Source of the DNA: a virus
Direction: 5' to 3' (one strand)
Length of the DNA: 22,318 nucleotides
Virus record (IMG/VR): IMGVR_UViG_3300042471_000448
Coordinates: 1 to 22,318 of that record
The first letter of the stretch is position 1; every line of letters starts with the position of its first letter. The notes beneath the pieces were generated by a model. That model was not told the origin of the DNA, searched no databases, and worked only from the letters and a program-made list of their open reading frames with translations. Both the position numbers and the translations under genes were made by a program. This document shows, piece after piece, positions 9,729 through 14,155 of the stretch.

Positions 9729-9922
9729 ATGTAGTCGACCAACTATTCAATCGTCTCAAGGCTGACCAGCAGGCATTTGCGCTGGACGCCTTGAGACGAC
9801 CACAAACACGGGATACCTTCGAGTACGGGTACCGCGTCGGCATCGTGCAAGGGTACGAAGCCGCCATCAATGTGCTCTTGCAACTTCTGAAAGAGGAGAA
9901 AGACAGTGACCCAGACCTATGA
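9725..9922 (+). CDS. Small helical hypothetical protein (65 aa)
   Basis: A 65-residue helical protein: two helices at about 1-25 and 33-58, with the central RDTFEYGYRVGIVQGYEAAI linking them. It resembles short proteins that sit between portal and scaffold genes in related phages (from memory), without known function. The start lies inside the preceding stop (ATGA) with no clear Shine-Dalgarno site, so expression probably depends on translational coupling. Its end overlaps the GTG start of the co-chaperonin gene by 17 bases. Confidence 0.65.
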   Translation: MNVVDQLFNRLKADQQAFALDALRRPQTRDTFEYGYRVGIVQGYEAAINVLLQLLKEEKDSDPDL

Positions 9923-10313
9923 GGACGCATTGGCAGAGGCTTTTCCGGCGGTAGACGCTGGCATTCAGCCTTTCGGTAGCCGTGTCCTGGTGCAAATCCG
10001 TACGCCAAAGAAAAAGTCGGCAGGCGGCATCATCATTGACACCGGCTCGCGCGACACCGAAAAATGGAACACCCAAGTCGGCAAAGTAGTTTCACACGGC
10101 CCAGTGGCTTATCGCAACCGCAACAACTTGGAAGCGTGGCCTGAAGGTTCATGGGCGCATGCCGGTGACTTCGTGCGTGTACCGAAATACGGCGGTGACC
10201 GTTGGGAAGTTCCAATGGAAAACGGCGAGAGCGCGATGTTTGTGATTTTCAACGACTTGGATATAATCGGCAAGGTCGATGGCGACCCGCTAGCTATCCG
10301 AGCATTCATCTGA
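9906..10313 (+). CDS. GroES-like co-chaperonin
   Basis: Likely the heptameric lid that works with host GroEL, replacing or modifying host GroES to fold phage proteins, most plausibly capsid or scaffold. Seen: IQPFGSRVLVQI at residues 20-31 matches the first strand of Cpn10 proteins. KKKSAGGIIIDTG at 35-47 corresponds to the mobile loop that contacts GroEL, with GGIII in place of the usual GGIVL. GKVVSHGP at 59-66, HAGDFVRVPKYGG at 85-97 and VIFNDLDIIGKVDG at 113-126 follow the canonical order. At 135 residues it is longer than bacterial GroES (about 97), as in phage co-chaperonins such as T4 gp31. GTG start, with GAGGAG at 9893-9898. Confidence 0.88.
   Translation: MTQTYEDALAEAFPAVDAGIQPFGSRVLVQIRTPKKKSAGGIIIDTGSRDTEKWNTQVGKVVSHGPVAYRNRNNLEAWPEGSWAHAGDFVRVPKYGGDRWEVPMENGESAMFVIFNDLDIIGKVDGDPLAIRAFI
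10240..10267 (+). promoter_or_regulatory. Possible sigma70 promoter inside the end of the co-chaperonin gene
   Basis: TTGTGA at 10240-10245 and a perfect TATAAT at 10262-10267 are separated by 16 bases. Transcription would start about 50 bases before the scaffold-like gene. The site is within coding sequence, so chance is a real possibility. Confidence 0.25.
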
Positions 10314-12522: not shown

Positions 12523-13437
12523 ATGGCTACCCCAATGCGTAGTACCGACTTTCGGTCGGTTGTCGAACCTATCCTGAACGAAGTGTTCGACGGTGTTTAC
12601 GAGCAACGTGCTGACGAATGGAGCATGGTGTTCCGTGAGCAAAAAGGCATTCCGCGTAACTACCATGAAGAGCCAGTGCTCTATGGTTTCGGTGCAGCGC
12701 CTGAACTGCCTGACGGCATGGCTGTCAGCTATCAATCAGGCGGCGTACTGTTCCTGCAGCGCTATCTCTACAAGGTCTATGGTCTGGCATTCAGCCTGAC
12801 CAAAGTTCTCGTGGAAGACGGTGACCACATTCGCATCGGTCAAACCTACGCCAAGCATCTGGCGCAGTCGCTGATCGAAACCAAGGAAACTCTTGGTGCG
12901 AACATTCTGAACCGCGCGTTCAACGCCAGCTACCCCGGCGGCGATGGCGTGGCACTGGTTTCGGCCAACCACCCAATCGTGAACGGCACGTTCAGCAACC
13001 AGCTGACCACCGCAGCCGCGCTGAGCCAAACTTCGCTGGAGCAGATCCTCATCCAAATCCGCAACGCTGTTGACAACAACGGCAAGCGTATTCGTTTGAC
13101 TCCGCGCAAGATTGTTTCTGGCCCGAGCAACGTGTTCCAAGCTGAGGTGCTGTTGAAGTCTGTGCTGCGTACCGGCACAGCTGACAACGACATCAACCCA
13201 GTGAAGTCGATGGGCCTGTTGTCGGAAGGTCAAGCTAACCTTTCTCGTATTACGTCCACCACTGCTTGGTGGGTCGAAACTGATGCGCCCGAGGGTCTCA
13301 AGCTCTTGATGCGTCGCGGTCTCGAGAAATCGATGGAAGGCGACTTCGAAACCGACTCCATGCGTTACAAGGCCACCGAGCGTTATGTGTTCGGTTGGAC
13401 TGACCCGCGCGGCGTTTACGGTACCGCTGGCGTTTAA
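12523..13437 (+). CDS. Major capsid protein
   Basis: The main shell protein, expected to have the HK97 fold. The 304-residue sequence has the layout of Mu gpT-like coat proteins in uncultured phages: FRSVVEPILNEVFDGVYEQ near the N-terminus, FLQRYLYKVYGLAFSLTKVL at 84-103, a central FNASYPGGDGVALVSANHP, then KIVSGPSNVFQAEVLLKSVL and a C-terminal RYVFGWTDPRGVYG. Little sequence precedes the core, so no long cleaved propeptide (delta domain) is evident, which fits a separate scaffold gene. The strongest ribosome site in the window, AAGGAGG at 12508-12514, precedes it by 8 bases, as expected for the most abundant protein. Followed by a hairpin-rich gap. Confidence 0.88.
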   Translation: MATPMRSTDFRSVVEPILNEVFDGVYEQRADEWSMVFREQKGIPRNYHEEPVLYGFGAAPELPDGMAVSYQSGGVLFLQRYLYKVYGLAFSLTKVLVEDGDHIRIGQTYAKHLAQSLIETKETLGANILNRAFNASYPGGDGVALVSANHPIVNGTFSNQLTTAAALSQTSLEQILIQIRNAVDNNGKRIRLTPRKIVSGPSNVFQAEVLLKSVLRTGTADNDINPVKSMGLLSEGQANLSRITSTTAWWVETDAPEGLKLLMRRGLEKSMEGDFETDSMRYKATERYVFGWTDPRGVYGTAGV

Positions 13438-13445
13438 GTAGTGAA

Positions 13446-13530
13446 CCCCGCTCGGGCAACCGGGCGGGGAATTCCGGGGTTACCCGGTGTTGTAGACAGT
13501 CCCGGCTGACGTCATGCAGACTACGACACC
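13446..13530 (+). ncRNA. Structured RNA element downstream of the capsid gene
   Basis: Three strong stems follow the capsid stop. Stem 1: CCCCGCTCGG (13446-13455) pairs with CCGGGCGGGG (13460-13469) through 10 pairs (one G-U), closed by a GCAA tetraloop of the stable GNRA class. Stem 2: CCGGG/CCCGG (13474-13478 and 13483-13487) around GTTA. Stem 3: GGTGTTGTAG (13486-13495) with CTACGACACC (13521-13530), 10 pairs with one G-U. Stem 3 shares two bases with stem 2. No T-run follows any of them, so this is not a standard intrinsic terminator. Likely roles are 3' mRNA stabilisation, processing or attenuation. Confidence 0.5.
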
Positions 13531-13555
13531 TTGACTCGCATGAGAGGAAACGAAC

Positions 13556-14155
13556 ATGGCACAAACTACATTCACCGGCCCAGTAACTTCGCTGAACGGT
13601 TTTTCTAGCGGCACTTCTTCGTCGCCGATTTCCGTCACAACTGCCGGCAACATTTCCAGCTCTTACGGCACAACTTCTGCTACGACCGGCGACACGAGAC
13701 TGTCTTACCAGCGGCTCGCATTTACTTCGACCGGTTCTGGTGAAACCGCACGCTTCCTCACCCGCGTAACTGGCGCAAATGCAGCAACAGGCGGCACGAT
13801 CAACGGCGCACACATCTCGACGTCGATCAACACAGGCGGCTCAATTTCTGGCGCAGCGAATGCAATCCGTGCAACGCTGGGCGGCACCGCGACAACTCCG
13901 GGCGGTACTCTGGCTGTTCTGCAACTGGACACCGACTACGGCACCAACGTGACTTTGGGCGCTGCATCTTCGTTTATCCGTGTTACCGACAGCGGTTCGC
14001 AAACTGGCGAAGTGCAAAATCTGATCAACATCGAAACTGGCCCTGCGGCTACTGTTGCGCCTACTGCTACTGCGGTTGCAACTGTTTCCAAGGCAATTAA
14101 AGTTCGCATCGGTGGAACTGATTATTATGTTCCTGCTTATGCTTCTTTTAGCTAA
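13556..14155 (+). CDS. Conserved beta-rich structural protein
   Basis: A 199-residue Thr/Ser/Gly/Ala-rich protein with few charged residues, typical of virion surface or fibre proteins. Seen: an N-terminal FTGPVTSLNGF stretch, TRLSYQRLAFTSTGSGETAR, then a repetitive GGTINGAHISTSINTGGSIS region followed by ANAIRATLGGTATTPGGTLA, and a C-terminal KVRIGGTDYYVPAYASFS. This pattern is common after capsid genes in uncultured phages, without known function. AGAGGA at 13542-13547 sets the start. It follows the structured gap and its stop overlaps the next start as TAATG. A head fibre or capsid-associated role is inferred from position. Confidence 0.65.
   Translation: MAQTTFTGPVTSLNGFSSGTSSSPISVTTAGNISSSYGTTSATTGDTRLSYQRLAFTSTGSGETARFLTRVTGANAATGGTINGAHISTSINTGGSISGAANAIRATLGGTATTPGGTLAVLQLDTDYGTNVTLGAASSFIRVTDSGSQTGEVQNLINIETGPAATVAPTATAVATVSKAIKVRIGGTDYYVPAYASFS

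Follow-up and report, generated by a model that had tools for sequence, protein, structure and literature searches.

A conserved double-pseudoknot RNA between the capsid gene and a putative capsid cement gene of phages, with a possible role in translation initiation

A structured RNA between two head genes

A stem-rich gap follows the major capsid protein gene of this virus, and the question that it raises is which of the two flanking genes the structure serves, and how. In the window, the whole 22,318-base stretch of an IMG/VR virus record analysed here, the capsid gene is located on the plus strand upstream of the gap (12523–13437) and is Mu gpT-like (Phage_capsid_4; Pfam PF25209, E = 3.8e-11; PF10124, E = 3.4e-5). 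The original prediction placed three stems within 13446–13530, and all are present at these coordinates: a first hairpin with a GCAA loop (13446–13455 with 13460–13469), a 5-pair stem of CCGGG (13474–13478) with CCCGG (13483–13487), and a third stem of 10 pairs including one G.U (13486–13495 with 13521–13530), which we refer to as P1. Reading of the corresponding gaps in relatives places this region as only part of a recurring post-capsid segment. The conserved RNA is a double pseudoknot at 13474–13548, between the capsid gene and a cement-type gene, and its two pseudoknots, its P2 hairpin and its P4/Shine-Dalgarno hairpin at 13535–13548 were absent from the prediction. The case for this fold rests on the relatives, because folding of the lone sequence gives only a modest excess over chance (−48.9 versus −40.0 ± 3.6 kcal/mol, z −2.45, 2 of 200 shuffles).

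All parts of the element lie on the plus strand. It begins with the CCGGG strand of pseudoknot PKa (13474–13478), whose partner is CCCGG at 13501–13505 in the P2 loop, the local alternative being 13483–13487. The 5' arm of P1 (13486–13495) is followed by a single unpaired A and by P2 (13497–13508; CAG, loop UCCCGG at 13500–13505, CUG), which P1 encloses. A conserved junction, ACG-UCAUGC-AGA (13509–13520), supplies the 5' strand of kissing helix PKb (13512–13517), and its unpaired nucleotides ACG and AGA are nearly invariant in the alignment of relatives. After the 3' arm of P1 (13521–13530) and a short linker comes P4 (13535–13546; CUC-GCAUGA-GAG), the entire loop of which (13538–13543) pairs with 13512–13517 to form PKb. 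The Shine-Dalgarno sequence GAGGA (13544–13548) overlaps the 3' strand of P4 and ends 7 nt before the start codon at 13556; the spacing between AGG and ATG is conserved at 7–8 nt in most relatives.

The gene that begins there (13556–14155, plus strand) opens with a conserved N-terminal tag, MAQTTFTGPVTSLNGF, which in the window (13556–13603) and its relatives runs for about 16 residues with the pattern M-A-x-T-T-F-x-G-P-V-x-S-x-N-G-F. Synonymous positions of the tag codons vary freely, so that the tag is conserved as protein, which rules out that the RNA continues into the coding sequence. The bodies behind the tag, of about 60–240 residues, are often unrelated to one another, and the combination of a constant tag with swapped bodies suggests a modular system of cement or decoration proteins. 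One sister body family is found both under the present RNA and under the Rfam RNA Mu-gpT-DE described below; a profile of this family hits 7eel_H, the cement protein of Pam1 (E = 5.8e-5), and the top four Foldseek matches to its structural model (pLDDT 78) are capsid or cement entries of KHP30, Pam1, GP4 and KHP40. The window's own body gives a poor AlphaFold model (pLDDT 50) and no match, and we infer from tag and position only that this gene encodes a capsid cement protein.

Covariation supports a sense-strand fold

Post-capsid gaps were taken from 80 IMG/VR loci whose capsid proteins are 86–96% identical to that of the window; a sequence pattern free of any pairing requirement then matched at least 120 contig stretches, and a descriptor search returned 162 candidates, 149 of them good and 128 distinct. 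When 45 diverse members are aligned by sequence alone (MAFFT), 97.3% of cells are paired, a percentage inflated by the partial choice of members by pairing, which does not inflate the variety of pair types, and 17 of 22 pairs have double-sided changes. The covariation score of this alignment is 0.613, as against 0.198 when shuffled and at most 0.151 in slid registers. The original prediction had proposed covariation in related phages as its check, and we applied a tree null (a home-made version of the R-scape idea; 97 distinct sequences, cutoff E ≤ 0.05), on which P1 contributes seven significant column pairs and P2, PKb and P4 one apiece, ten in all; no significant pair lies outside the model among these sequences. 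Nine of the ten P1 pairs show compensatory changes. Two of the three P4 pairs never vary and so contribute no covariation evidence.

All six pairs of the kissing helix PKb form in 149 of 162 descriptor instances, through sequence types as different as ACAUGC/GCAUGU, UCAUGC/GCAUGA, ACAUAC/GUAUGU, AUGCAC/GUGCAU, CUGCAC/GUGCAG, UUGCAC/GUGCAA and ACAAGC/GCUUGU. Without any pairing filter, 104 of the 120 matches listed lie before a TTFxGP-tagged gene; all six pairs form in 102 of these 104, whereas unrelated pattern matches form two or three only. For PKa, a complement of at least 5 is found in 119 of 128 relatives versus 58 with shuffled partners, and, where the loop is other than CCCGG or CCCAG, in 29 of 38 versus 6.2, both comparisons ignoring kinship. 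The non-Watson-Crick cells of P1, read on the coding strand, comprise 57 G.U and 4 A.C, an excess indicating that the element acts as a sense-strand RNA, transcribed with the capsid genes. Taken as comparative evidence, these observations show a sense-strand fold of P1, P2, P4, PKa and PKb with the Shine-Dalgarno sequence built into the 3' strand of P4.

It had been suggested that the second and third stems compete through shared bases 13486–13487. The overlap is real in the window, but the conserved partner of strand 13474–13478 is the P2 loop, not the local strand. A bistable switch between the second stem and PKa was considered and is not supported as a conserved feature: the local hairpin is somewhat more frequent than in shuffles (48 versus 29), but with strands other than CCGG the counts are only 10 versus 4.5 (maximum 10).

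Distribution of the element and its likeness to Mu-gpT-DE

About 150 IMG/VR loci share the element, and the phages concerned form a large aquatic group. A relative of the capsid protein is encoded upstream in 136 of 149 instances, and the element is still present where capsid identity to the window has fallen to 32–48%. Our covariance model (R1) gives one strong match per genome, and no multiple copies, in 15 long contigs. Among the 76 closest capsid relatives for which enough sequence lies downstream, the element immediately follows the capsid gene in 38, comes after an inserted gene in 11 and is absent from 27. The inserted gene, by eye often homing-endonuclease-like, separates capsid gene and element (L003, L004, L005, L013, L042, L046, L047, L050, L051, L064 and L069), the latter being kept with the cement gene.

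Divergent named phages also carry the element. The model matches Pelagibacter phage HTVC023P (E = 8e-8) and MW202675.1 (E = 2e-4), and inspection by eye recognised the element in DSL-LC04, HTVC027P and 023Pt_psg01, where both pairings are kept. The covariance model outperformed BLASTN of the consensus element, which had no match in INPHARED. A scan of 84,980 GTDB species genomes gave four matches, all on phage contigs beside a capsid relative, and no host gene with the element. In 48 of 85 marine members a TATAAT-like −10 box lies 15 nt upstream of the element, which is thus predicted to form the 5' end of a cement mRNA in these relatives; in the window's clade such a promoter is found in 2 of 36 members, which is chance level.

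Other leaders occupy the same junction. In about a dozen capsid relatives that lack the element (L052–L055, L058, L059, L063, L068, L071–L073 and L075), the capsid stop is followed by a simple hairpin enclosing the Shine-Dalgarno sequence (UUCUC-UAAA-GGAGAA and the like), and the gene behind it, a similar one, starts MSQTTWSGPL. Planktothrix phage Pag-Yong1 has yet another leader (L211:3909–4014), with a hairpin GACCCGGGG/CCCCGGGUC and a loop CCGUCUCC that is complementary to the Shine-Dalgarno region GGAGACGG; this may be the same design reached independently.

No Rfam family, riboswitches and cis-regulatory RNAs included, reaches its gathering score in the window, and Mu-gpT-DE (RF03012) has no match there. 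Sub-threshold matches to RF03012 fall right on the element, and in its register, in two relatives (10.5 bits in L028 and 9.2 bits in L086; family cut-off 49). Matches to mir-214, P15 and L20-leader in a permissive scan were sub-threshold, chance-like and implausible, and were discarded. The element and Mu-gpT-DE have in common a core of the order P1-A-P2-AC(loop)GA-P1', RF03012 aligning to L028 in exact register; a position flanked upstream by a Mu gpT-like capsid gene and downstream by a TTFxGP-tagged gene; and a loop pairing that engages the translation initiation region. They differ in that the present RNA has a longer P1, a further 5' strand that pairs with the loop of P2, and a P1 loop that kisses a separate P4/Shine-Dalgarno hairpin, whereas the Mu-gpT-DE loop pairs with the start codon. 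By a criterion devised here rather than Rfam's, loop and start codon of the following gene are complementary in 1 of 141 instances of the present RNA and in 59 of 79 of Mu-gpT-DE. Because position, core and target are common to both, we regard the element as a new and larger form of the little-studied Mu-gpT-DE family, one that falls short of the RF03012 threshold and carries in addition a second pseudoknot and a Shine-Dalgarno hairpin. A description of this variant was not found among the openly accessible papers searched.

Roseobacter phage CRP-901 has a true member of Mu-gpT-DE (72.3 bits) at the same junction, and in 121 pattern-matched loci a capsid relative lies upstream in 118 (median identity to the window's 41%) and a tag-bearing gene downstream in at least 112. 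A TATAAT-like box precedes the element by 13–14 nt in 73 of 103, and alignment with CRP-901 pairs CCUG of P1 with the Shine-Dalgarno CAGG. With a relaxed loop definition and ignoring kinship, at least 5 pairs form between loop and start-codon region in 59 of 79 loci versus 31 shuffled, and loops with GCC accompany GCN as codon 2 in 52 of 52 and other loops accompany GGN in 26 of 26. The covarying codon 2 is thus Ala (GCN) or Gly (GGN) across these loci (L218–L396; L084:3488–3540). RF03012 is filed as 'Gene; sRNA', but an upstream promoter, a Shine-Dalgarno sequence in P1 and a loop that covaries with the start codon give it the look of a leader at the 5' end of the cement gene. The two RNAs would then hide one initiation region in two ways, and parsimony on the capsid tree gives about ten swaps of leader type.

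What the element may do

We consider it probable that the element is a cis-acting RNA leader of the capsid cement gene that controls translation initiation, and that it probably sets the timing or amount of cement protein. In the complete fold, PKb would keep the three-pair P4 closed and so hide the Shine-Dalgarno sequence, leaving the cement gene poorly translated; opening of the fold would give ribosomes access. Occlusion is suggested because the sister family pairs with the start codon and about a dozen relatives use a plain Shine-Dalgarno hairpin, and control of translation is favoured by the 11 loci in which inserted genes have parted the element from the capsid gene but not from the cement gene. 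Two points speak against it. A fold that hides the Shine-Dalgarno sequence of a gene needed in roughly capsid-like amounts requires a release mechanism, and none was found; and the ribosome could melt the short P4, making the element a weak modulator or a 5' stabiliser.

Tentatively, the most likely trigger for opening would be a phage structural protein, so that cement output would track capsid supply; the capsid protein or the tag would be a likelier trigger than the body, since RNA, tag and capsid protein stay constant across exchanged bodies. A more specific possibility, to which we give about one chance in four, is an assembly-responsive switch: the double pseudoknot would be bound by capsid protein not yet assembled, or by the cement tag, and cement translation would thereby be set in step with the shell. 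On this view the present design, which would hide the Shine-Dalgarno sequence, and the Mu-gpT-DE design, which would hide Shine-Dalgarno sequence and start codon, have replaced each other roughly ten times at the junction in aquatic phages that are abundant.

Translation control of the cement gene by this leader, if true, would be a conserved RNA control point for capsid reinforcement in very common freshwater and marine phages, including HTVC023P-type pelagiphages, and would make a testable leader for translation control out of an Rfam family filed only as an 'sRNA' behind capsid genes. Few phage pseudoknots have a known role in translation, and the only viral example that a 2010 review could give for autoregulated translation was the T4-type gene 32 pseudoknot (PMC3014915). 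In T4 and T2 the gene 32 mRNA leader contains a pseudoknot that is an autogenous translational operator; the present element is likewise a phage leader pseudoknot upstream of a translation start, and would work similarly if a protein trigger were confirmed (PMC3014915). The gene 32 pseudoknot differs in that it lies 67 nt upstream and the ribosome site there carries an A+U-rich tract (PMC3014915), whereas the present fold itself includes the Shine-Dalgarno sequence. The target here is also different, a capsid cement gene, and no sequence relation between the two is shown.

An alternative explanation, which we judge unlikely though deserving of weight, is that the element stabilises or processes the 5' end of the cement mRNA, shielding it from RNase E or 5' attack so that the message would last long and be translated at a high level, and that the overlap with the Shine-Dalgarno sequence is incidental. 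The −10 boxes at fixed distance (48 of 85 marine members; 73 of 103 Mu-gpT-DE loci) predict an RNA that begins at the element, and the cement gene must be highly expressed; however, the window's clade keeps the fold without such a promoter (2 of 36), and stabilisation predicts neither a kissing-loop pairing beside the Shine-Dalgarno sequence nor the start-codon covariation of Mu-gpT-DE.

A riboswitch that senses a small molecule or ion, and through it the state of the infected cell, is improbable, although a double pseudoknot with near-invariant unpaired ACG and AGA resembles ligand pockets. Sequestration of the Shine-Dalgarno sequence is a usual riboswitch output, and in the SAM-II and preQ1 riboswitches a pseudoknot helix adjoins or covers it. 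The present element differs from these in having neither an Rfam riboswitch match nor a metabolic gene; its single target is structural, and it is confined to phages, the four GTDB matches all being on phage contigs.

The original prediction emphasised the 3' end of the capsid gene, and a location behind its stop codon is in keeping with an end element or terminator. The 10-bp hairpin with the GCAA loop (13446–13469, plus strand) lies right after the stop and outside the conserved element, and all 39 members whose element immediately follows the capsid gene, among them the window, have a stable hairpin there. Its stem and loop vary, GCAA being replaced by GAAA, UUCG and others, and in 20 of 39 close relatives a T-run makes it terminator-like. 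In the window no T-run follows 13469 or 13530 and no intrinsic terminator site is found on the plus strand, so the statement that this is not a normal intrinsic terminator holds there, even if the first hairpin of relatives often resembles one. The conserved part begins past this hairpin, is without a T-run, ends in the Shine-Dalgarno sequence of the next gene and is kept with that gene despite inserted genes (11 loci), which makes a 3' end role very improbable for it. An effect on capsid mRNA ends or stability is unsupported for the conserved part, given that in marine relatives the −10 box lies 15 nt upstream of it, and the further suggestion of control over downstream expression is the one that the comparison supports.

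Least probable is a DNA-level site, such as a constant head promoting recombination and swapping of cement bodies: RNA and tag are constant while bodies differ completely and leader type switches about ten times, but the 57 G.U versus 4 A.C cells of P1 need selection on coding-strand RNA, and recombination may exploit any conserved stretch as a by-product.

The head-gene cluster of the window also contains a GroES-like co-chaperonin gene (9906–10313; Cpn10, E = 5.9e-9), and the named relatives likewise have co-chaperonin genes in the head-gene cluster.
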